This document shows positions 42,036-59,743 of a stretch of 64,000 nucleotides of DNA, piece after piece. A program made the position numbers and the translations under genes. The stretch covers positions 1-64,000 of the forward strand of contig JABXIS010000023.1 of assembly GCA_013372975.1 (NCBI GenBank), in the 5' to 3' direction. This stretch comes from Alphaproteobacteria bacterium (lineage in GTDB: Bacteria; Pseudomonadota; Alphaproteobacteria; Sphingomonadales; Kordiimonadaceae). Under the pieces are notes generated by a model. It made no database searches, was not told where the DNA came from, and saw only the letters and a list, made by a program, of their open reading frames with translations. How positions within the stretch are numbered: the stretch's first letter is position 1; each line of letters starts with the position of its first letter.

Positions 42036-42187
42036 CTCAACACCTTGCATCTACACTGTTAGATAGCATGCATGGCTGGCGATGGGAACGAATTAGGCTG
42101 TCACAATCCTGCCGCGATATTGCGCCACCCTTCAAAAGCTGCCTTAATAACCATCGCAAACAATTGCGCATCAGGATGGGGGATATC

Positions 42188-43792
42188 ATGAAATATAGAA
42201 ATATTGCTCTTCTACTTGCTGGCGTCTCAGGCCTTTCCATCGCTTCAGCTGCGGAGGAATTTACAGCTATTCCTGCCATCACAGACGTAGCCGTTTATCG
42301 CGATGGGGGCGCGACTGTCACCCGGCGCGGTACCTTGAAGGTGCCTGCAGGCAGGCATACTCTTATCCTCGATCAGCTAACGGAATCGTTGGATGAAGAA
42401 ATGCTGTCTCTCAGTTTCGAGGACGGCGAAGTCCGTGTCTACAGCCAGGAGATATCACCATCCTATTCCACAACACCTGCCTCTGAGAGGCAGGCGGCGA
42501 TTGAAGCGCAAATAGCTATTCTTCGTGCCCAGGACAAAGACCTGCAGGCGCAGGAACGAGGCCACCAGATGCAACTGGATTTTATCCGGTCACTGAGTCA
42601 GAAGCAAAATACCGAAACCTCTCTCAGCTTTACAGATTGGCAAAATGCTTTGGCCTTCGTAGGCCAACAATCTGTTGATCTTCTGCGTAAAATCGAGGCG
42701 CTCACCCTGAAACGCACAGAGATCGGGCAGGAAATTCGGAAACTTGAGCGAGAGCTTCGAGACACTGGCCCGGACAGAGAAGATTTCACCAGCGCACGTT
42801 TTGAATTGATGGTACCAACAGAGCGCGAGGTTACATACAGCTTGAGCTATTTTGTCGATGATGCTGGTTGGTCACTGGCGACAGAGGGCGCACTGAATAC
42901 CACCGAGAAAAACCTGACAATCCGAGCGGCGGCAATCGTTGAGCAAACCACGGGAGAGGACTGGTACAATGTTCGCCTTTCCCTTTCCAACAATGCGCCG
43001 ACAGACGAGTTAGGCAACATTGATCAAAATCCGCACATCCTAACACTTGTAGAACCAAACCGGATGGAAAGAAAAGCTTACTCAATGGCACCGGGGCCGG
43101 AAATGGATGTCGCCATGGACGCGGAAGAAATTGTCGTGACTGGATCCCGCGTTACTGCCAATTCCTCGGCGTTCGATCGCATGTATCATATTGCAGGCAC
43201 AGTATCGCTTTCCTCTTCGGGAGAAAGCGAAATCATTGACCTCAATGAAACGACATCAAAGGCAGCGCTGGTCGTCCGGGCAATTCCTGAGCGGGATACC
43301 ACAGCCTACCTTTTCTCGGATACCAAACTGGATAACTTCCCGACACTCAGGAACATTAGCCCTACACTCCGGCGCGATGGCCATTTTGTCGGCACCGGTG
43401 ATTGGCCGGATCTTGTCCAGGGCGCAGACCTAAAGCTGCCCTATGGTCCCGACTATGCGGTCACAGTTGATTATATCGAAGAGGCGCCAGAAGACGGCGA
43501 CAGTGGTTTTTTCGGCAAAAACAACGCGCAGGAAAAGCGAGCACTAATCAAAATAACAAATAGCCACACAGAACCTGCAACTGTTGAGATATTTGATCAG
43601 ATCCCCGTTTCAGGCCATGAAGACATCAAGGTCCGCACGCTATCTGATGCCACAACGCCTACGGAAACGGATATGGGCGGAAAACAGGGCCTGATGATGT
43701 GGCGAAAAACGCTAAAGGCGGGCGAGACGTGGACGATCCGGCATCAGTATCGGATCACCTACCCGTCTGACATGCAATTGATCAGCCGCTAA
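42188..43792 (+). CDS. secreted DUF4139/DUF4140 protein with an internal TonB-receptor-like motif
   Basis: This protein of about 534 residues has a signal peptide ([22 protein letters not shown]), an N-terminal DUF4140-like beta domain ([18 protein letters not shown]), a coiled coil (about 100-210) and a C-terminal DUF4139 domain. Near residue 311 it carries EEIVVTGSR, the sequence usually found at the start of TonB-dependent receptor plugs. The function of DUF4139 proteins is not established. ATG 42188 has GGGGGA four bases upstream; ATG 42176 is an alternative. Its stop overlaps the convergent cold-shock gene by 4 bp. Confidence 0.83.
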
Positions 43793-49474: not shown

Positions 49475-49828
49475 TCATCGGTTAATCGAAATGACAGTTG
49501 AAAAAGCCTTAAGCACTTCAATTATTTCCCGCGCATGCGAGGGGCTGCCATCCCATACCTCCTCGCAAGCCCGATGGATATCTGCCAAGCAAAATGCGGC
49601 ATGCTCTTTCTCTTGCCTCTCGGCTTCCGCTAGAAACCGGAGCAAGGAAAACACACGCGGTGTGACCTTTGTAATACGGCCGTTCTTGATCTTGTTCACC
49701 CAGCCCTGAGATACGTTGCAGCGCCTGGCAAGTTCCTGCTCAGTCAGTCCGAGGCGTTTCAGATAACGCACCATGAGGTCGCTCGCATGCTCAATTTCTT
49801 GATTGCCTGTTTGACCATATTTCCCCAT
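49475..49828 (-). CDS. small HTH (Xre-like) protein
   Basis: This 117-residue protein has a helix-turn-helix at about residues 25-55 (RYLKRLGLTEQELARRCNVS, WVNKIKNGRI) and a helical C-terminus. It resembles Cro/C1-type DNA-binding proteins. It starts 17 bp after the deacylase gene on the same strand, so it is probably the last gene of the D-peptide operon and may act as a local regulator. The target is unknown. Confidence 0.8.
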   Translation of the reverse strand: MGKYGQTGNQEIEHASDLMVRYLKRLGLTEQELARRCNVSQGWVNKIKNGRITKVTPRVFSLLRFLAEAERQEKEHAAFCLADIHRACEEVWDGSPSHAREIIEVLKAFSTVISINR

Positions 49829-49845
49829 GTCGGCAAATTGCTGCG

Positions 49846-51384
49846 TTAGTGCTGTCGCGCCAAAGAATTTCCTGCAAGATGACCGGTCAGTTGCCCCTGC
49901 CGAATGGCGAGTTTTCCGTTCACGAGCAGATATTGTACGCCTACAGAAGGCTTTGCGGGTTGCGCATATGTCGCGATCGGCCCGAACACTTGCGGGTCAA
50001 ACAGCAAGACATCTGCAAATGCTCCCTCGGAAATCACACCGCGGTTGACCAGCCCAAAGGTACGGGCAGTCAACAATGTTGATTTGTGCACAAAATCCTC
50101 AAGTGGCAACAAGGAAAGTTCGTCAACATACCGCCTGAATTTGTTTGGGAAACTGGCATATTTGCGGGGGTGTCCTGCCCCGCCATCCGAACTGGTCATG
50201 ACCCAAGGTTGCGCCATAAACGCCTGAATATCATCTTCATGCATATTGAAGGATGCAATACCAGCATCTCCTTCATGCAGAATATAGTCGGCCGCTGCGA
50301 TGGCGCTTTCCCCTCTGACTTCGGCAAAATGGGCAAGCGTTTGACCCCGCCACTCAAACTTGCCACCGGTAAGCAATATCGCCTCAGCGCCGCCACGCCT
50401 GCGAAGATTTTCCCACATTTGTTCGTGGATCCGACCTTTGCTTTCTGGTGCCTTCAAGCGCGCCAGCATCTGAATGCGCCCTCCAGCCATCGCCCAACGC
50501 GGCACCAGGGCATTACTGATGCGTGTCCCAGACGCCCGCCACGGATATTGATCAGCTGTAACACGGATGCCTTCTGCCCGGGCAGCATCAATGCGGGCAA
50601 TAACTTCATTGCTTTGCCCCCACACATCCACACCAAGGGCCTTGATATGCGCGATATGAACCGGTACGCCAGCAATCCGCCCCACTTCGATCGCTTCCTC
50701 AATCGCCGCTTGAAGCCCGATCGAATAGTTGCTTTCGTCACGGATGTGAGTTTCATACACGCCGCCGAATCCTGCTGCGACACGTGCCAACTCAACCACT
50801 TCTTCCGTTTTGGCAAAACTGCCCGGTGCATAGAAAAGCCCAGAGGAAACCCCTAATGCCCCAGCCTTCATGCTGGTGATAACCAGTTTTTTCATTTCTG
50901 CCAGTTCTTGTGGGGTTGGCTCTCGCGCATCCATCCCCAGTACCTGCCGACGCACTGTACCGTGGCCCACGAAGAGCGCCATGTTTGCCCCCAGCCCTCG
51001 CTGTGCAAGTTCACCCAGGGCCGCGCCCACATCCGATGGGCCCTTGCCGTCATTCCCGGAAAAAACTGTTGTAATGCCCTGTGTCAGGTAGCTTTCAAGG
51101 AGGATGCCCCCCTGTGCTCCGCGCTCGTCCCAGGCGTGGGTATGGGGATCGATGAAGCCGGGCGTGACGACCAGCCCCTCCGCATCAATAACGTCTTTGG
51201 CGTCGAAGCCTTCTCGATCAGGTCCTACATAAACGATCCGATCTCCCTCGATACCTATGACAAGGCGCTGGCCCGCAGCCCCGGTGCCGTCAATGACCAA
51301 TCCATTTCGGATCAATAAATCCCACTTGTCGTTGGCATGAAGGGATGAGGAGATGAAAATCAATAACAGCAGGAAACACCGCAT
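49846..51384 (-). CDS. secreted N-acyl-D-amino-acid deacylase (D-aminoacylase)
   Basis: This amidohydrolase of about 512 residues has a signal peptide (MRCFLLLLIFISSSLHA), so it acts in the periplasm. The metal-site pattern of the D-aminoacylase subgroup is visible: HTH in FIDPHTHAW (about residue 86), a His in YETHIRDES, HIAH, and the Asp in SSDGGAGHP. The family hydrolyses N-acyl-D-amino acids to D-amino acids. The start at 51384 has a GGGGGA ribosome binding site and is 1 bp from the stop of the M14 gene. Together with dadA it forms a D-amino acid catabolic route. Confidence 0.88.
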   Translation of the reverse strand: MRCFLLLLIFISSSLHANDKWDLLIRNGLVIDGTGAAGQRLVIGIEGDRIVYVGPDREGFDAKDVIDAEGLVVTPGFIDPHTHAWDERGAQGGILLESYLTQGITTVFSGNDGKGPSDVGAALGELAQRGLGANMALFVGHGTVRRQVLGMDAREPTPQELAEMKKLVITSMKAGALGVSSGLFYAPGSFAKTEEVVELARVAAGFGGVYETHIRDESNYSIGLQAAIEEAIEVGRIAGVPVHIAHIKALGVDVWGQSNEVIARIDAARAEGIRVTADQYPWRASGTRISNALVPRWAMAGGRIQMLARLKAPESKGRIHEQMWENLRRRGGAEAILLTGGKFEWRGQTLAHFAEVRGESAIAAADYILHEGDAGIASFNMHEDDIQAFMAQPWVMTSSDGGAGHPRKYASFPNKFRRYVDELSLLPLEDFVHKSTLLTARTFGLVNRGVISEGAFADVLLFDPQVFGPIATYAQPAKPSVGVQYLLVNGKLAIRQGQLTGHLAGNSLARQH

Positions 51385-51385
51385 C

Positions 51386-52573
51386 TCATTCCCCCACAGC
51401 TTTGCGTTCAAGAAGGTTTTTCATCAACTCTTCCGCAAATATCCGGGCAGAGTTGGCAATTGCCTGTCGATCGGTCTCGTCCCCCACTTCATAGGTGATG
51501 GCTGGCACACCAAATGTCGTGAACACATAATTTTTGGAGGTAGGCGTTTCAGTGACCGGCCGTTCAGCATATTCAAAGGGATACACCCCTTCTCTTGCTT
51601 CAGCGTCTGAGAGCCAAGCCCTCGTCAATCCTTCAGGGTTTGTCCGTTCATTGTCTGCCTGAACGTAAAAGACGTTCCGCCTTGTGGAATGAAAATCCGA
51701 GAAAAACCAAATCCGATCATCCTCATGGAAACGCTCAAGCTCACGCCGGATGGCTTGTGTTTCGGGCTGGGTAAACTTCACCCAGTCTCGGTTAAGGTCG
51801 ATATCACCAAGGCTATGACGCCAATGCCCCTGCTGTACGCCATCGGGGTTAAGTTCTGGTACGATGATAACGCCAAATTGCTGCCTGAACATCCGCGCAG
51901 TTTCGGTGTCGCTCATGATGGTTTCACTGAATGCAAGAAGGGCCAGCGCACCGGTTACCTCAGGTGGGTGCTGCCGACCGATCAGGACGATATAGTCACG
52001 CGAACCATCTTCGGCCGAGGATTCCAGTTTGTAGAGCGGCAGCCCCCCTTTTGATTGCCCCAACACAGACAGTTGCATCTTTGCATTTTCTGCCATGGCT
52101 GCAGCCCATGCCTGATGTCCTTGATGTGTGAAAACCTCCTGAGCAGACACGTGCAAGATCTGGGATTGCGTGCCCAATGACAAACGGATCACCCTGTCGT
52201 TTAATGATTTCACGGCTTCAGAAGCCAGAAAATACCAGTGTATGCCGTCCCGACTGACCTTGGGCCAATACCGGTGTTTTGCATGCTGGTAAACTAGATC
52301 CAGGGTAACCTCTACCTGTTGGTTTGGTTCAATCCGGAAGCTATACCATGGACTAGGGTTTATGGGCGGTTCATCCTCGGGGGTGATCAACAGACGGACA
52401 GTTCCGTCACCTTGCATTTCACAGCCATTGATCCGACCCGCATCGAAGTCAGAGCGCACCACAAACTGGTCATACGAACACACACGCTGAGGCGTGTCTT
52501 CCGCCTGAATGCCCGCAAGGCCGATCAAACCCGCTATCAATGCACCCAAAATTCCTCGCAGATTAACAATCAT
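51386..52573 (-). CDS. secreted M14-family zinc carboxypeptidase
   Basis: This 395-residue metallopeptidase starts with a signal peptide (ILGALIAGLIGLAGIQAE). An N-terminal beta domain resembling the one of cytosolic-type M14 carboxypeptidases precedes the catalytic domain with the zinc ligands HxxE in GRQHPPEVTG and His in SDFHST, the DLNRDW substrate-binding segment, and the catalytic Glu in TYEVGDE. It removes C-terminal residues from peptides. It is translationally linked on both sides: ATGA overlap with dadA and 1 bp from the deacylase gene. A role in trimming imported peptides is inferred. Confidence 0.88.
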   Translation of the reverse strand: MIVNLRGILGALIAGLIGLAGIQAEDTPQRVCSYDQFVVRSDFDAGRINGCEMQGDGTVRLLITPEDEPPINPSPWYSFRIEPNQQVEVTLDLVYQHAKHRYWPKVSRDGIHWYFLASEAVKSLNDRVIRLSLGTQSQILHVSAQEVFTHQGHQAWAAAMAENAKMQLSVLGQSKGGLPLYKLESSAEDGSRDYIVLIGRQHPPEVTGALALLAFSETIMSDTETARMFRQQFGVIIVPELNPDGVQQGHWRHSLGDIDLNRDWVKFTQPETQAIRRELERFHEDDRIWFFSDFHSTRRNVFYVQADNERTNPEGLTRAWLSDAEAREGVYPFEYAERPVTETPTSKNYVFTTFGVPAITYEVGDETDRQAIANSARIFAEELMKNLLERKAVGE

Positions 52574-53811
52574 GCGGCCACTCCCTTTTCGTTATTTCGA
52601 CGTTTCTCAAGCATGAGATCTGCGAGCCGGTCAGCACTGCCACAGGCGAAGGTCCAGCCGAACATGCCGTGGCCGCAATTCAGATAGAGGCCTGCCATCC
52701 TGCTTTTGCCAGTAATCGGCAATCCATCGGGTGTCATTGGGCGAATGCCGGCCCACCCAGAACAGGCATGATCGTAATCACCCACGAACGGCAATGCTTC
52801 CTGGGCAGTCTGCTTTAGCAACTTCAACCTATCTTCCTTCAGCGACGTGTCTGTGCCATCGAAGTCGGCCAATCCTGCCACTCTTATTTCATTGTCAAGC
52901 GGCGCGAAAACTATTCTTTTGTCGGCGTCCGTCAAACTAAGCCCTAAGCCCATGCTCTCTGAAGCGGGCATGGAAAAACTATAGCCTTTTACCGGCATGA
53001 TTGGCGCATGGATGCCATATCTCTCCAGAAGCGGCCTGGCTCCAGCACCCAATGCAACGACTACTGCATCGGCCGTAAAGTCACCCCCGCTTGTGGTGAC
53101 CCCAACAGCACGATCACTGTCCGTAAGCAATCCGCGGATGCGACGTTTCAGTTTGATCTCAACGCCATATTGGCTACTGCAAATCATGGCCAACGCTTCC
53201 GTAAAGCGGCGCGCATCCCCGACGGCATCATCAGGGGAATAGATACCTCCGGCAATTGTCGGTAACTGGTCATCTAGGCCTGATGCCAGACCATGACATT
53301 CGCTTGGTGACAGAGCATAGACGTTTAGCCCTGCCCTTTTCTTGATCTCGGCCTTGGCCCGCATAGCATTGAAAGCACGAAGGCTCCTGGTCACAACGAG
53401 CTTACCAGCAACCCGGTGCCGAAAAGAAATGTTATGCTTGCCCAACAAAGAATTCAGGGCTGCACGCGATTCAAGAGCCAAGGTAATTGCGGACTTGAGG
53501 TCGCGTGTTCGAAAGGGAGCAAAACTATGCCCCAACAATTTGATGCCCCACCGCATCAGTTGGCGATCGAACGGACAGTTAAACCGAATAGCCGAATTCC
53601 GGCCCAACAATATCCCAGGGAGGGATGCCACCATCTGCGGCGAGGCGAGGGGGTCAACAAAACTGTAGGAAAGTTGGCCGCCGTTTGCGAAACTCGCGCC
53701 GGCCGCGACCGAGCAAGCCTGGTCAACAACCGTAACCTTGCACCCTTTTCGGGCCAACTCATATGCCGTGGTTATTCCCACAACACCCGCACCAAGAACG
53801 AGAATACGCAT
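52570..53811 (-). CDS. dadA: D-amino acid dehydrogenase (DadA-type)
   Basis: This 413-residue FAD protein of the DAO family has the N-terminal Rossmann motif VLGAGVVGITTAYELA, the DadA-like GASFANGGQLSYS, and a C-terminal FAD/substrate segment GYSFSMP...WAGIRPMTPDGLP. DadA-type enzymes oxidise D-amino acids to 2-oxo acids and ammonia and pass electrons to the respiratory chain. It directly follows the TonB receptor and overlaps the M14 gene (ATGA), placing it inside the D-peptide operon. No alanine racemase gene (dadX) is adjacent. Confidence 0.93.
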   Translation of the reverse strand: MRILVLGAGVVGITTAYELARKGCKVTVVDQACSVAAGASFANGGQLSYSFVDPLASPQMVASLPGILLGRNSAIRFNCPFDRQLMRWGIKLLGHSFAPFRTRDLKSAITLALESRAALNSLLGKHNISFRHRVAGKLVVTRSLRAFNAMRAKAEIKKRAGLNVYALSPSECHGLASGLDDQLPTIAGGIYSPDDAVGDARRFTEALAMICSSQYGVEIKLKRRIRGLLTDSDRAVGVTTSGGDFTADAVVVALGAGARPLLERYGIHAPIMPVKGYSFSMPASESMGLGLSLTDADKRIVFAPLDNEIRVAGLADFDGTDTSLKEDRLKLLKQTAQEALPFVGDYDHACSGWAGIRPMTPDGLPITGKSRMAGLYLNCGHGMFGWTFACGSADRLADLMLEKRRNNEKGVAA

Positions 53812-53883
53812 AATCCTGATCCTGCCTGCTATTGGTATGAAAACCGGGGCCTGTGACCAGCCCCGGCCTCAATCACTCAGGGC

Positions 53884-56800
53884 TTAGAACTTCTTGCTGA
53901 TATCTACATAGAAGAACCTGCCGGTGCCGCTATGCATGGAGCCGTAGAAGCCAAAGTACTCGTCAGCCAGTGGCGGATCACGATCAAACAAATTGTTCAC
54001 ACCCACCCGAATGCGCGAGCCATCAAGCAAACCGTCTTCGAAGCGATAGGAAACATTGGCGTTCATCACAAACCAGTCGTCTACCCGATATTCAACGGTT
54101 TCGCCGTCAACTTCCATATCGACGCTGGTATCATAGAAGCCACCAACATAGCGCGCGAACAACCCTGCGCCCCAGTTGGCATTTCGCCATGTCAGGCTGG
54201 AAGAGAAACGCCAATCCGGGCGGCCATTCTGCTCACGCAGATCACCAAGCCCAGTCACTTCCACGGAAGCTGGCAAATCCCCGGCTTCGATCGCATCCAG
54301 AAGCTGTTGGCCAAGTTCACCAGCATCCTGCTGGAATTTACTCAGTTTCGCAGCATTGAACTTGAAGCGGAAATCACCAAGCTTGTCAGCATTCCAGTTG
54401 TAGACGAGCGCAAAGTCATAGCCTGCAACCGTCCGGTCATCCAAATTGGTATAGGGATCATGCACTTCAATAATTTCCCCCGCTGCACTAAGGCTGCTTT
54501 GGGCAAACAGGTCGATTAGGTCCTGATCAGGCGTATCCCGCACCACATTCGGGTTGGAGCTTCCCTGGCTGCGCAGCAGCAGATCAAGCGCAATCTGGTT
54601 TTGATCACCAAAGATGCCGACCACACCACTCTGTTCAACACGCCAATAATCAGCGGTCAGCGTCAGTCCTGGAATAGCGGCGGGCTGCAACACCACACCA
54701 ACATTATACTGTGTGGTATTTTCGTTCTTCAGCTCTTCCGTACCGGTACGAACGCTTTGCGTGCCCTGCCCTGAACAATCGCCCAGATCGGCAATCTGGC
54801 CGGCATCGACCTGCGCCTGGCAGATGACAAAGTCATCACGGCTATTGGAACGCGTGGTACCCGGATCAAAAATCTGCACAAGGTTTGGCGCCCGGAAACC
54901 TTCAGACCATGCGCCTCTGAACATCAGGCCATCCACTACGGTCCAGGCTGCTGCCACTTTCGGCTTGAAGGCCGATCCCGAATAGTCGAAATCCTCAAAA
55001 CGGCCAGCAATCTGCAAATCCAGGCTTTCCATCAAGGGAATATCCATGTCCGGGCTAACAAGCGGCACCGAAAATTCTGCGAACGCTGATTTCACCCAGC
55101 GGCTACCTGACGAATCTGGTGTCGGACTTGAACCAAGAACGTCGCTTTCCGAGACCAATTCACCTGTAACAGAGTCAGTGAAAGTGATTGTACCATCAAG
55201 GCGATCATCACGATCATCCTCAAAGCTTTCCCGGCGGGCCTCCACGCCCACGGCGAACCCGACATCACCTGCTGGCAACGCGAAAAGCTCAGCATTGGAC
55301 ACTTTGAAGTCTGTCAGGAAAAGAGTGGTCTTGCCGTCACGCGAGACATCAATGCGGAAGCTGTCGATTGTGCTTTCGCTATTTGGTGTGTTGGTGCCTA
55401 CGCCTGTCAAATCAGTCAGGCTACCACCGGCAAACGGGTTATAGGCATCAGCCGTATTGCGAGAGATTGCTTCCTGAAATAACGTCATGGAAATCCGGTT
55501 ATTGGTCAAATCTTCCGTAGTTGCTTCAGAATACAGCACTGCTGTATCCCAATCCCAGACACCCCAATTCCCGCGCAGGCCACCAAGGACACGGAAACTC
55601 TGGTCGGTTACCGTTGTAATACGAGGTCCTGCATCCACGGGGCGCAGGTTGCGGACTTCAATATTATAGCCTTCATCAGGCACATCCGTCAGGCCTGCGA
55701 TACGGTTCGGATTTGGCGAGCCATCAAGAAGCGTTGTCGCACCAAACGGATTATAATAAGCCGTTGTCGGGATCATGAACCGTTGCGCTGTTAGCACCTG
55801 CCCCTGGAAGGAATGCCTAACAGACTTGGCATGGTAGTAGGCCGCTTCGGAATAAAATTCCATTCCGCTATCAAATTCGTGCGTCAGGATACCGAAGAAG
55901 TTGAAGCGATCCCGAGCCGAATGCAGCGTATTGCGCGCGTCGAAATCGAAACGCAGTTCGTTTTCAAGCGACGTGCCGTTATCAAAGCAAACCCCGTCCC
56001 CCCGATCCAGCAAACAACTTGATGCATAATCACCGGACGCTGGCTGAACGTGGAAATCATCGTCACCAAGCTCAGCAATACGCTCATCCGCCCGGAAGCG
56101 ACCAAACGGCGAGTTTACAGACGAGTTGAAAAACTGTGAATCACCTTCCCACTGCGTACCAACCACAAGTGGAAGCCTGTCTGAAGTTGCAGAGAAATCA
56201 CGTTCAGAAGCTGGTGTACGATTGCGGTTATAGTAAGAGCCGAACACCGCAAGATGGGTAGCGCCACCATTGAAATCAAACCCGGCCTTGCCTGTAAGCG
56301 TCAGGTCCTGGCGGCCTGTGTTTTCAGCAAAACCATAACGGCCCCGAAGCGTGATACCTTCAAAATCATCATCAAGAACCGTATTCACCACACCGGCAAC
56401 AGCGTCAGCGCCGTAAAGTGCCGCAGCGCCATCGCGCAGCACCTCAACACGTTCCACACCAAAGGTCGGGATGGTATTCGTGTTTGGCGTAACCACCGGA
56501 ACAAGATTTTCAGTTTGGAAGCCAGGGTGTAAAACCATACGGCGCCCATTCAGAAGGGCCAGGGTGTTGCCTGTTCCCAATGCGCGCAGGTTGATGGAAT
56601 TGACGTCACCGCGGGCTGCATTCACACCTGCGCCAACAGCACCTTCATTAAAGGCCACAAAGCCAGCTTGCGGAATCGACCGGAAAAGCTCGTCACCGGA
56701 AACCGCACCAGTAGCCACAATGTCGTCTGTGCTTACTACAGACACAGGCAAGGAACCAGAAATGCGAGCGCCCTTGATCTGCGATCCGACAACGATGATT

Positions 56801-57243
56801 TCCTCAAACATCATGTCATCGTCAGCAGATGCATCGCCTGAGGCATTATTTCCGGGCGCCGCCGCTCCTGCCCCGGCTTGCCCCACATTTGCCGTGGCAG
56901 TCCCGTTCTTTTTTTGGACGACATACACCTTGTCTGAGACCTTGCGATATTCAAGATCACTGCCCGCCAAGATTTTTGCTAGCGCAGCCTCAATACTCAT
57001 GGTGCCGGAGATGGCGGGTGACATGGCGCCGTCAGTGAGCGATGGCTCAAACATAATCTGTACAGATGCCTGCTCAGCAAGGGTCAGAAGCGCGTTTTCG
57101 GTTGCCTGCTCTGCTACATTCAAACGCACATCTTCTGCAAGCGCACCTGTGGTCGAAAGAGTAAGCGCAATCGCTGTTGCACCCAAAAGTCGGCGTGCAG
57201 TTTTTTGATATGACTGGTGTTTTCCCTCTAGGCGCATTTTCAT
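53884..57243 (-). CDS. TonB-dependent receptor with STN signalling domain
   Basis: This outer-membrane receptor of about 1119 residues has a signal peptide (ending ALAE), an STN secretin/TonB signalling domain (about residues 45-110, LLTLAEQASVQIMFEPSL), a polar linker, a plug with EEIIVVGSQIKGARISGS and VERVEVLRDGAAALYGADAV, and a 22-strand barrel ending in an aromatic residue (YVDISKKF). The STN domain lets a ligand-bound receptor signal to FecR in the inner membrane. ATG 57243 has GGGAGG upstream. It is preceded by a promoter-like element matching the one before the sigma gene. Confidence 0.95.
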   Translation of the reverse strand: MKMRLEGKHQSYQKTARRLLGATAIALTLSTTGALAEDVRLNVAEQATENALLTLAEQASVQIMFEPSLTDGAMSPAISGTMSIEAALAKILAGSDLEYRKVSDKVYVVQKKNGTATANVGQAGAGAAAPGNNASGDASADDDMMFEEIIVVGSQIKGARISGSLPVSVVSTDDIVATGAVSGDELFRSIPQAGFVAFNEGAVGAGVNAARGDVNSINLRALGTGNTLALLNGRRMVLHPGFQTENLVPVVTPNTNTIPTFGVERVEVLRDGAAALYGADAVAGVVNTVLDDDFEGITLRGRYGFAENTGRQDLTLTGKAGFDFNGGATHLAVFGSYYNRNRTPASERDFSATSDRLPLVVGTQWEGDSQFFNSSVNSPFGRFRADERIAELGDDDFHVQPASGDYASSCLLDRGDGVCFDNGTSLENELRFDFDARNTLHSARDRFNFFGILTHEFDSGMEFYSEAAYYHAKSVRHSFQGQVLTAQRFMIPTTAYYNPFGATTLLDGSPNPNRIAGLTDVPDEGYNIEVRNLRPVDAGPRITTVTDQSFRVLGGLRGNWGVWDWDTAVLYSEATTEDLTNNRISMTLFQEAISRNTADAYNPFAGGSLTDLTGVGTNTPNSESTIDSFRIDVSRDGKTTLFLTDFKVSNAELFALPAGDVGFAVGVEARRESFEDDRDDRLDGTITFTDSVTGELVSESDVLGSSPTPDSSGSRWVKSAFAEFSVPLVSPDMDIPLMESLDLQIAGRFEDFDYSGSAFKPKVAAAWTVVDGLMFRGAWSEGFRAPNLVQIFDPGTTRSNSRDDFVICQAQVDAGQIADLGDCSGQGTQSVRTGTEELKNENTTQYNVGVVLQPAAIPGLTLTADYWRVEQSGVVGIFGDQNQIALDLLLRSQGSSNPNVVRDTPDQDLIDLFAQSSLSAAGEIIEVHDPYTNLDDRTVAGYDFALVYNWNADKLGDFRFKFNAAKLSKFQQDAGELGQQLLDAIEAGDLPASVEVTGLGDLREQNGRPDWRFSSSLTWRNANWGAGLFARYVGGFYDTSVDMEVDGETVEYRVDDWFVMNANVSYRFEDGLLDGSRIRVGVNNLFDRDPPLADEYFGFYGSMHSGTGRFFYVDISKKF

Positions 57244-57300
57244 GCGAACCTCCCTTTTCCTCTGCCCGCTAGGGGCGAAATGGAACAATGTTTCCAAGGG

Positions 57301-57330
57301 TGATTACGCACTGGGGAAATACTCCCTCCA
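57301..57330 (-). promoter_or_regulatory. ECF-sigma promoter before the TonB receptor operon
   Basis: On the minus strand TGGAGGGAGT-N10-TGCGTAATCA follows an A/T-rich tract. The same two decamers with the same spacing (one mismatch in 20) stand before the ECF sigma gene (59009-59038). GGAGGG and CGTA would be the -35 and -10 elements of the local FecI-type sigma factor. Confidence 0.78.
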
Positions 57331-57346
57331 ATTTTTCATGAAAAAA

Positions 57347-58408
57347 TTACTTTGATGCGAGAGCAATCTCGATCCGGTCATCATAGCGGGTAACTGAAAT
57401 CGGCAACATGGCTTCAAGCCCCGCCAAAGCGCCATCAAGGTCATCGTGATGGAACACACCGCTGATGTTCATGACTGCGGCCCGTTCATCTTTGATTGTT
57501 ATTGGCGTTTCTGTATAGCGGCCAAGCTCACCCACCACGGATGCCAGTGACTGATCACTAAATCGCACAACCCCCTGCCGCCAGGACTGATGGCTCTCGG
57601 CATCCGCCACTTCCACTGACCCTACCAGTTCAGCGCTCTTCTCAAACGTTCCGACTGATCCGGCCTCTAGCAGATAATGTTGAAAACCAACGGCATCGGT
57701 CGCTTGCTCTGACGTTGCAAACAGCGTGCGCGCATCTTCTTCAAGCCTTTCAGGCGCAATATTTTCATGCACGGCAACCTTGCCTTCAACTACGGCCACA
57801 GTCAGCTTCACGCCCTTGCGTTGTACATTGAAACGAGTACCCAAAACCGTCACAGACTGGGAGCCCGCTGTCACGACAAAGGGTCGCGATGGATCTTTAG
57901 TGACGTCAAAGAAAGCTTCGCCACTATCCAGGATAGCCCGTCGCATATTATCGTTGAAATCCACAAATAGCTTGGTCCCCGTATTGAGGGTAACAACAGA
58001 ACCGTCCTCAAGCCTTAACTCACGCGTTTCACCGACACGCGTTGCATAGGCTTCCACTGCCTCATTGCGGGCCTCAGGGTTGTCTGGGCTTATCAAATTC
58101 AAACCAAACACCGAAAGCATCAACATCGCGGCTACGGCCATTGCGGGTCTGAACCATCTGCTAACGATCGAAGCGCGGCGTGCCTGTCCTCTCGGCGTTA
58201 CCAATTCATCCATGGCATCTCTGCCAAGCTCGTCCCAAACCTCAAGCATATGGAAATATTCAGCCTGGTGCCGCGCATCTGCTGCAAGCCACTTTTCAAG
58301 AGCTTCTTCATCGGATTGGGATGCATTGCCGGAATAGGCCCGCGCAACCCATTCCGCCGCTGCCTTCCGAATTTCTTCATCCACAATATTTTTTTTATTC
58401 TTCGTCAC
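57347..58408 (-). CDS. FecR-type anti-sigma/signal transducer
   Basis: This 353-residue inner-membrane protein has an N-terminal DUF4880-like domain (EEIRKAAAEWVARAYSGNAS), one membrane helix (about residues 93-108, AMAVAAMLMLSVFGL), and the periplasmic FecR domain (ATRVGETRELRLEDGSVVTLNT) with a C-terminal DUF4974-like end. It relays the state of the STN-bearing receptor to the ECF sigma factor. Its ATG overlaps the sigma gene stop (58405-58408), the usual fecI-fecR coupling. Confidence 0.93.
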   Translation of the reverse strand: MTKNKKNIVDEEIRKAAAEWVARAYSGNASQSDEEALEKWLAADARHQAEYFHMLEVWDELGRDAMDELVTPRGQARRASIVSRWFRPAMAVAAMLMLSVFGLNLISPDNPEARNEAVEAYATRVGETRELRLEDGSVVTLNTGTKLFVDFNDNMRRAILDSGEAFFDVTKDPSRPFVVTAGSQSVTVLGTRFNVQRKGVKLTVAVVEGKVAVHENIAPERLEEDARTLFATSEQATDAVGFQHYLLEAGSVGTFEKSAELVGSVEVADAESHQSWRQGVVRFSDQSLASVVGELGRYTETPITIKDERAAVMNISGVFHHDDLDGALAGLEAMLPISVTRYDDRIEIALASK

Positions 58409-58983
58409 CGATCCAGCTCCTGGCGAAGCGCCAATAATACTCTACAAATATATTTTTCAACAGTGCTTACCGACACTGCGAGGTCGTCCGCGATTTCGCG
58501 ATAGCTCTTGTGTTCAAAACGGCTCAACATAAATGCACGACGGTGATGTGCCTTCTGTTGCCTAAGCGTTCTCTCTACCACACCAATATTTTGGCGGCCG
58601 GATACTTCGCGCTCCGGCGAAATAGCCACCGACAGATCATGATCATCTATGGACTGATGCTTGTCTGCTGCCCTCACCTTGGCTCTACGCCCGCGGTCGC
58701 GGATAACATTGCTTGCTATCACAAACAGATAACTTCGCACCGTATCTGGGCTTTGGCTAAGGCGCTCAACCAGGTCATCTATCTTGGCAAGCTTCAGATA
58801 GACGTCCTGCAAAACATCTTCCTGGTCATGGGGCGACAATTGCCGCATGCGTAGAAAGCGCCTGAGTGCACTGTCATGCTCAGCAACGATTTCTGACAAC
58901 ATACGATCCCGCGCCGAAAACTTGCGGACAGGAAAACGTAATATGTTCGCTTTGGAAACCACCATTTCTCCATGCAAAGTCAC
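58405..58983 (-). CDS. ECF sigma factor (FecI-like)
   Basis: This protein of up to 192 residues has sigma region 2 (LRRFLRMRQLSPHDQEDVLQ, SYLFVIASNVIRD) and region 4 with a helix-turn-helix (KSYREIADDLAVSVSTVEKYI). It directs RNA polymerase to dedicated promoters and is probably held and activated by FecR. The frame opens at GTG 58983; ATG 58965 or GTG 58962, near a GGAGAA sequence, are plausible shorter starts. The promoter-like element at 59009-59038 suggests autoregulation. Confidence 0.92.
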   Translation of the reverse strand: MTLHGEMVVSKANILRFPVRKFSARDRMLSEIVAEHDSALRRFLRMRQLSPHDQEDVLQDVYLKLAKIDDLVERLSQSPDTVRSYLFVIASNVIRDRGRRAKVRAADKHQSIDDHDLSVAISPEREVSGRQNIGVVERTLRQQKAHHRRAFMLSRFEHKSYREIADDLAVSVSTVEKYICRVLLALRQELDR

Positions 58984-59116: not shown

Positions 59117-59743
59117 TTAGATTTCCAGCTGCTCCGCAACTTCAAGGGCATCATCAACATCGATACCCAGATAGCGAACAGTGCTTTCCATCTTCGAATG
59201 GCCCAACAGTAGTTGAACTGCCCTCAGGTTCTTTGTCTGTTTGTAAATCAGTGAAGCCTTGGTCTGCCTGAGTGAGTGCGTTCCATAACTGCTAGGATCT
59301 AGACCGATGTCTCGGATCCACGACTTCAAAGCCCGAGCATATTGTCGCGTGGAGAGATGCCGATTTCGATCGCCCCTGCTGGGAAAGAGGTAGCCTGAAT
59401 TCCCCAATCCAGATTTCGTGATCCACTTCAAAATCGATTCCCGAGCTTGTTTCGAAACTTCAAACCGGACCGGGTTGCCTGTCTTTTGCTGTAGAACCAA
59501 TGCGCGGTGCTTCACCTCCGATCCGTCACACACATCAGAGACCTTCAGCTTCACCAAATCGCAGGCCCTTAGCTTGCTGTCGATCGCCAAGTTAAACAGG
59601 GCAAGATCACGAACCGCAGCCTTCATCTGCAGGCGAATGCGGATCGCCCAAATCTCCTTCAGTTTGAGAGGTGGCTTTTGCCCAATCAGCTTTCCCTTGT
59701 TCCAGGGCTGATGGAAATTTTCATGTTGAAAGAAGAGTTTCAT
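59117..59743 (-). CDS. short tyrosine recombinase/integrase
   Basis: This 208-residue protein consists mainly of the catalytic domain of tyrosine recombinases. Visible residues are Arg in SKLRACDLVKL, HSLRQTKA (HxxR), LLGHSKMES with the second His, and the nucleophile Tyr in TVRYLGID. It lacks the full N-terminal SAM-like core-binding domain of phage integrases, but this short form is common in Proteobacteria as an orphan element. AAGGAGA precedes the start. It lies at the upstream edge of the D-peptide region with the hairpin on one side and the repeat at 59797 on the other. Confidence 0.9.
   Translation of the reverse strand: MKLFFQHENFHQPWNKGKLIGQKPPLKLKEIWAIRIRLQMKAAVRDLALFNLAIDSKLRACDLVKLKVSDVCDGSEVKHRALVLQQKTGNPVRFEVSKQARESILKWITKSGLGNSGYLFPSRGDRNRHLSTRQYARALKSWIRDIGLDPSSYGTHSLRQTKASLIYKQTKNLRAVQLLLGHSKMESTVRYLGIDVDDALEVAEQLEI

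Follow-up and report, generated by a model that had tools for sequence, protein, structure and literature searches.

Gene content and organization

We describe a gene locus at positions 49,475 to 58,983 of a 64,000-nucleotide stretch of contig JABXIS010000023.1 (hereafter the window) from a member of the alphaproteobacterial family Kordiimonadaceae; it centres on a TonB-dependent receptor and may serve the utilization of D-glutamate-containing peptides. All seven genes are encoded on the minus strand and their Pfam families agree with the names given by the first-pass annotation, which had taken the set for a sensed uptake and degradation system for D-amino-acid-containing peptides. The run begins with an extracytoplasmic function (ECF) sigma factor of the FecI type (58405..58983; Sigma70_r2 and r4_2 above the Pfam cut-off), 57% identical to its counterpart in the related locus L038, followed by a FecR-type anti-sigma regulator (57347..58408; Pfam FecR and DUF4880) with counterparts in L038 and L043. 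Next comes the outer-membrane receptor with an STN signalling domain (53884..57243; Pfam STN, Plug and barrel), which is called from an ATG at 57243 with a longer TTG start possible at 57297. Three enzyme genes follow, encoding a DadA-like flavin adenine dinucleotide (FAD)-dependent D-amino acid dehydrogenase that we propose to be a D-glutamate dehydrogenase (52570..53811; Pfam DAO), a predicted secreted M14 metallocarboxypeptidase (51386..52573; Pfam Peptidase_M14 with a cytosolic carboxypeptidase (CCP) N-domain) and a predicted secreted D-aminoacylase-like amidohydrolase, P0001, referred to below as the deacylase (49846..51384; Pfam Amidohydro_3). The deacylase is called from an ATG, with a TTG alternative at 51411, and its best structure matches are D-aminoacylases. 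Judged by eye, the M14 and deacylase N-termini resemble signal peptides, and the DadA-like protein starts directly with the FAD-binding fold and has no signal peptide.

The coordinates bear out the close packing of the enzyme genes noted earlier (overlaps of 4 base pairs (bp) and gaps of 1 to 17 bp). The ECF and FecR genes overlap by 4 bp, as do the DadA and M14 genes, and gaps of 1 bp separate M14 from the deacylase, 17 bp the deacylase from the last gene, 72 bp the receptor from DadA and 103 bp FecR from the receptor. That last gene encodes a small helix-turn-helix (HTH) protein of the XRE type (49475..49828; Pfam HTH_3). We no longer count it as a member of the set, as none of 20 related loci has a counterpart (the search covered these 20 and not the loci added later). 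Promoter and terminator scans of the locus gave no more matches than shuffled sequence, and the locus does not stand out in GC content.

Conservation of the receptor, peptidase and deacylase block

Orthologs of the M14 peptidase (at least 200 bits) were identified in 15 of 59 related genomes, in addition to one in genome G009 that is cut by a contig end. Around them the same gene order recurs in one direction, namely receptor, DadA (not always present), M14 and deacylase (likewise not always present), with the deacylase adjoining M14 in 11 of the 59 genomes. A profile search of 197 genomes of the order (E 1e-150 for the deacylase, E 1e-60 for M14) found the deacylase in 50, M14 in 47 and both in 25, and the two genes are neighbours in 17 of these 25. 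Both genes are rare in the class at large: where the best few candidates per genome were scored, M14 was found in 9 and the deacylase in 4 of 386 genomes, the window included. A receptor adjoins M14 in 27 of the 30 loci with room for one, comprising the window, all 14 loci of the first set, 6 out of 7 at class level and 6 out of 8 added later, with four Fodinibius loci left out of the count; the receptor counterparts adjoining M14 in related loci share 37 to 75% identity. In genome G041 (L047, 7930-10815) M14 and deacylase are fused in a single open frame of 961 residues that contains both Pfam domains, the strongest single sign that the two enzymes act together. A plasmid search with the M14 protein returned only distant M14 genes, in nine records.

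The loci compared are related, and these counts are accordingly not independent of one another. The receptor-M14-deacylase block is nevertheless conserved and its linkage goes beyond chance, being found across genera and families, so that the association of enzymes and receptor first noted in the window holds in its relatives. A literature search for a D-deacylase or D-aminoacylase together with a TonB receptor, carboxypeptidase or DadA returned no publication describing such a set; the 2023 ISME J article on DgcN falls outside it.

Predicted specificities of the deacylase and the carboxypeptidase

The predicted structure of the deacylase (predicted local distance difference test (pLDDT) score 87.7) is a TIM barrel for which D-aminoacylases are the best matches by both sequence and fold; the best NCBIfam model is PRK09061, with a score below its cut-off. 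It shares fold and active-site residues with AfDam (1m7j), the N-acyl-D-glutamate deacylase BbDam (3gip) and a Klebsiella D-acylase (9gv8), from which it differs in an Asp for Cys replacement, the signal peptide judged by eye and an insert region that could not be aligned. Subtype V of the amidohydrolases is defined by a Cys/His/His metal site with a Cys ligand, according to the available part of PMC12017989. The deacylase keeps the four metal-site histidines, the Lys, Tyr, Tyr and Arg that bind the alpha-carboxylate of the substrate in this subtype, and the catalytic Asp, but departs from it in the Cys column, which is occupied by Asp121. This Asp is invariant in 16 aligned orthologs and is found in all 41 ortholog copies of at least 44% identity (38 by pattern, 3 by eye), while six more distant copies have Asp (3), Cys (2) or neither (1); in the alignment, the distant paralogs L061 and L062 have Cys. 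The deacylase may use Asp as a metal ligand, a variant of the site that, to our knowledge, has no precedent in the amidohydrolase superfamily and that would, if real, be new to it. The glutamate-specific Arg295, which holds the side-chain carboxylate in BbDam, could not be placed, with the insert region unaligned; Arg305 of P0001 is a candidate and is not invariant. We think it likelier that the enzyme cuts a peptide bond to D-glutamate, as in L-Ala-D-Glu, than one to a lipid acyl group, and no longer favour the earlier view that it removes an acyl cap from D-residues.

The M14 peptidase is predicted to have a CCP-type fold (pLDDT 87.7) and shares this fold and its catalytic residues with cytosolic-carboxypeptidase-like enzymes (4b6z, 3l2n and CCP5, 8v3m), from which it differs by its signal peptide (judged by eye), its linkage to a receptor and a fully conserved Lys at the position of residue 255 of carboxypeptidase A. 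Equivalents of His69, Glu72, Arg127, Asn144, Arg145, His196 and Glu270, in the customary M14 numbering, are present in 19 of 19 aligned sequences. The Lys in question, Lys347, is likewise invariant (19/19) and its column aligns with residue 262 of carboxypeptidase T, presumably the equivalent of position 255 of carboxypeptidase A and, from the titles of structure entries, the site of engineered mutants such as T262G and T262S. A basic residue at position 255 confers specificity for acidic C-terminal residues in the M14 family, as stated in the accessible text of PMC9925722, and Lys347 conforms to this pattern. For M14 we thus predict the removal of a C-terminal residue that is acidic or anionic, and the Lys would suit either glutamate or the distal carboxylate of diaminopimelate.

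Proposed exchangeable D-glutamate modules

Neighbouring genes were scored with one script in 39 loci whose deacylase is at least 44% identical (L095, below 44%, was excluded); seven of these loci are shorter than 13 kb, two of them shorter than 4 kb, and neighbours may be missed there. The genes dgcN and dgcA occur in 13 of the 39 and a DadA-like gene in 12, the window among them, and no locus has both. For independent loci, chance would produce this absence of overlap with a probability of 0.0025, but the loci are not fully independent. Hence 25 of the 39 loci carry one or the other module beside the deacylase and never the two together, pointing to D-glutamate as the product, and we consider it very probable that D-glutamate is the common product of these loci. 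The window DadA would then be a D-glutamate dehydrogenase. The chemistry is consistent with peptides containing D-residues, as the first-pass annotation had it, and within that class the substrates can be narrowed to peptides of, very probably, D-glutamate.

NCBIfam describes DgcN as an N-acetyltransferase and DgcA as an N-acetyl-D-glutamate racemase. Both proteins of L047 and of L057 score above the equivalog cut-offs, as does the pair of the paralog locus L062; the DgcA-like protein of another paralog locus, L060, falls under the cut-off (369 against 400). DgcN is annotated in L065, L066 and L068, and no match to it (DUF1611) was found in the window genome. The DgcN/DgcA/DgcR pathway of D-glutamate metabolism was described by Yu et al. 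(2023, ISME J), as cited in the available part of PMC12363236. In the annotated Pseudoalteromonas sp. CF6-2 and P. donghaensis genomes the order of genes is TonB-dependent receptor, amidohydrolase, M14, NhaC antiporter, dgcR, dgcN and dgcA, and Sphingobium yanoikuyae has symporter, dgcA, dgcN, LysR, amidohydrolase and TonB-dependent receptor in that order. CF6-2 is reportedly the strain in which the DgcN/DgcA/DgcR pathway was worked out, and its locus resembles that of the window in having a receptor, an amidohydrolase that shares 51% identity with P0001, and an M14 upstream of dgcR-dgcN-dgcA with a single antiporter gene between; it differs in that the window genome has a DadA-like dehydrogenase in place of DgcN and in that M14 of CF6-2 belongs to another, longer type. 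A second M14 type, longer at about 800 to 870 residues, is encoded in 7 of the 39 deacylase loci (for example L039 12157-14727, L047 5293-7896 and L065 15656-18046).

The window DadA scores 360.9 bits against the NCBIfam D-amino acid dehydrogenase model PRK00711, below the cut-off of 383. In a phylogenetic tree of 29 DadA-like proteins, from which L035, L001-L004, L010 and L016 were omitted as partial or duplicate, the 12 proteins from such loci fall on one side of a branch with support 73/51 that is recovered in 75% of bootstrap trees, and these 12 plus one other protein form a well-supported set (97/93). The 12 derive from two families of the order and from a Novosphingobium plasmid. An SDF-family (dicarboxylate/amino acid) symporter is encoded in 12 of the 39 deacylase loci, and the window genome has one such gene on another contig. 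Five loci with distant amidohydrolases (L109-L113) encode DgcN and DgcA, three of them also a DadA-like protein, and probably represent a second D-amino-acid system in the same genus.

Regulation and flanking genes

The window has the ECF sigma factor, FecR and STN receptor of a FecIR-type locus in one run, resembling FecI-FecR-FecA cell-surface signalling but with catabolic enzymes in place of iron transport genes. Among the 20 related loci, FecIR genes were otherwise found only in L038 (ECF and FecR) and L043 (FecR, where the contig starts). STN went undetected by Pfam in eight of nine relatives' receptors scanned, including that of L038 despite its ECF and FecR genes, and was detected only in L043 (one of the nine sequences lacks about 35 residues at its start). 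Of the 39 deacylase loci, 23 contain a LysR gene. The rarity of FecIR and STN together with the frequency of LysR suggests that FecIR sensing is probably a local replacement and does not belong to the system as such.

Loci combining FecIR and a TonB-dependent receptor are known in lasso-peptide catabolism. We rejected this function because Pfam found no S9 peptidase among the nine window proteins scanned. Directly upstream of the ECF gene, at 59117-59743, the window encodes a short tyrosine recombinase (208 residues, Phage_integrase) that is a possible mobile boundary, although the GC content barely shifts there. Further away, at 42068-43792, lies a gene for a MuiA family protein (TIGR02231, over its cut-off).

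Source of the peptide and alternative explanations

Beside related deacylases we found genes for AmpG-like proteins (7 of 39 loci), PBP4-like proteins (7 of 39) and penicillin-acylase-like proteins (8 of 39). The AmpG family model TIGR00901 is exceeded in L053 and just missed in L057 and L058, and the PBP4 model TIGR00666 is exceeded in L057; a single AmpG family gene lies on another contig of the window genome. Strain CF6-2 can live on peptidoglycan as its only carbon and nitrogen source and uses D-glutamate as its only nitrogen source, according to PMC6962226; a search of that paper for the terms TonB and amidohydrolase found neither. The AmpG and PBP4 neighbours and the growth of CF6-2 on peptidoglycan lead us to prefer peptidoglycan stem peptides as the substrate.

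Several observations weigh against a single D-glutamate peptide locus fed by peptidoglycan. M14 and the deacylase stand apart in 8 of the 25 genomes having both, M14 lacks a receptor in L069 and L086, only a receptor remnant of about 45 residues precedes it in L085 (8782-8922, genome G572), and the four Fodinibius loci, which came from a scan of genome contigs with M14, hold M14 relatives but no further member of the set, not even a receptor. Among the 39 deacylase loci, 12 have no receptor and 14 have neither DadA nor Dgc genes. Paralog loci L109, L110 and L113 hold Dgc genes together with a DadA-like gene of another lineage, so only in this ortholog group do the two modules exclude each other. 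The one symporter tested, that of L048, scores below every curated cut-off and fits DctA marginally better than GltP. Neither the window locus nor any of the 17 loci among the 39 that bear M14 contains an AmpG-like or PBP4-like gene; such genes, like the penicillin-acylase-like ones, occur only in deacylase loci without this M14. Lastly, all seven long PGA_cap proteins (open frames of 682 to 781 residues) in the 59 genomes are encoded within 10 kb of an ortholog of this M14, the proximity in G014 being inferred across a contig break.

The PGA_cap proteins also furnish an argument for an alternative that we think unlikely, in which the substrate is poly-gamma-glutamate. Here the receptor would import oligomers, M14 would clip C-terminal glutamate and the amidohydrolase would split gamma-Glu-D-Glu, with the PGA_cap protein, perhaps as an epimerase, assisting in relatives; two of the seven have weak NCBIfam matches (45 and 54 bits, cut-off 700) to MslH, the lasso-peptide Trp epimerase. 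The resemblance of the M14 fold to CCP5, which was solved with glutamate analogs, and the Lys at position 255 are in keeping with such a role. However, PGA_cap has no match in the window genome and is present in just 4 of the 39 deacylase loci, the AmpG and PBP4 neighbours point to murein, and ordinary M14 enzymes require an L-configured C-terminal residue. Three of the long PGA_cap proteins are located at L036 15794-17824, L044 15990-18056 and L047 16098-18377; two of these three have an N-terminal carboxypeptidase-regulatory-like match below cut-off and two are weakly MslH-like.

A locus for D-amino-acid peptides or N-acyl-D-amino acids of any kind, such as lipopeptides and nonribosomal peptides, without preference for glutamate, appears similarly improbable. 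The D-aminoacylase family includes enzymes that act on N-acetyl-D-Met and other hydrophobic D-residues, in the portion of PMC12017989 available, and both the sub-threshold PRK09061 match and the 14 loci without a D-glutamate module would fit a broader substrate range, but the Dgc genes and the basic S1' residue of M14 single out glutamate or another acidic residue. We reject as very improbable a locus of the oxidative chitin type, in which the amidohydrolase would deacetylate N-acetyl-glucosaminate as OngB does. PpOngB is a structural neighbour of the deacylase, but AfDam, BbDam and the Klebsiella deacylase outscore OngB in a sequence profile search, and neither the M14 peptidase nor Dgc/DadA has an evident place in that pathway.

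Proposed function

We therefore favour, with a probability of about 0.5, a TonB-receptor-centred utilization locus for D-glutamate peptides, of which stem peptides from peptidoglycan, for example L-Ala-gamma-D-Glu-diaminopimelate, are the likeliest. The receptor would move these peptides across the outer membrane and, through its STN domain, FecR and the ECF sigma factor, would induce its own operon. In the periplasm M14 would take off the anionic C-terminal residue, after which the amidohydrolase would cleave the amide bond on the D-glutamate nitrogen. D-glutamate would enter the cell by a symporter encoded elsewhere and be oxidised to 2-oxoglutarate by the DadA-like enzyme, a last step for which relatives would use DgcN/DgcA.

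D-amino acids make up an important share of the recalcitrant dissolved organic matter of the deep sea, according to the accessible part of PMC12363236. If the proposed function is correct, Gram-negative bacteria would have a dedicated receptor locus for stem peptides or other gamma-D-glutamyl chains, in which a periplasmic M14 and a new Asp-ligand D-aminoacylase, sometimes fused, feed interchangeable D-glutamate modules (a specialised dehydrogenase or DgcN/DgcA), a generalization that we advance tentatively. The locus offers a receptor, a pair of enzymes predicted to be periplasmic and two alternatives for the last step, which makes the uptake of peptidoglycan-derived peptides directly testable.

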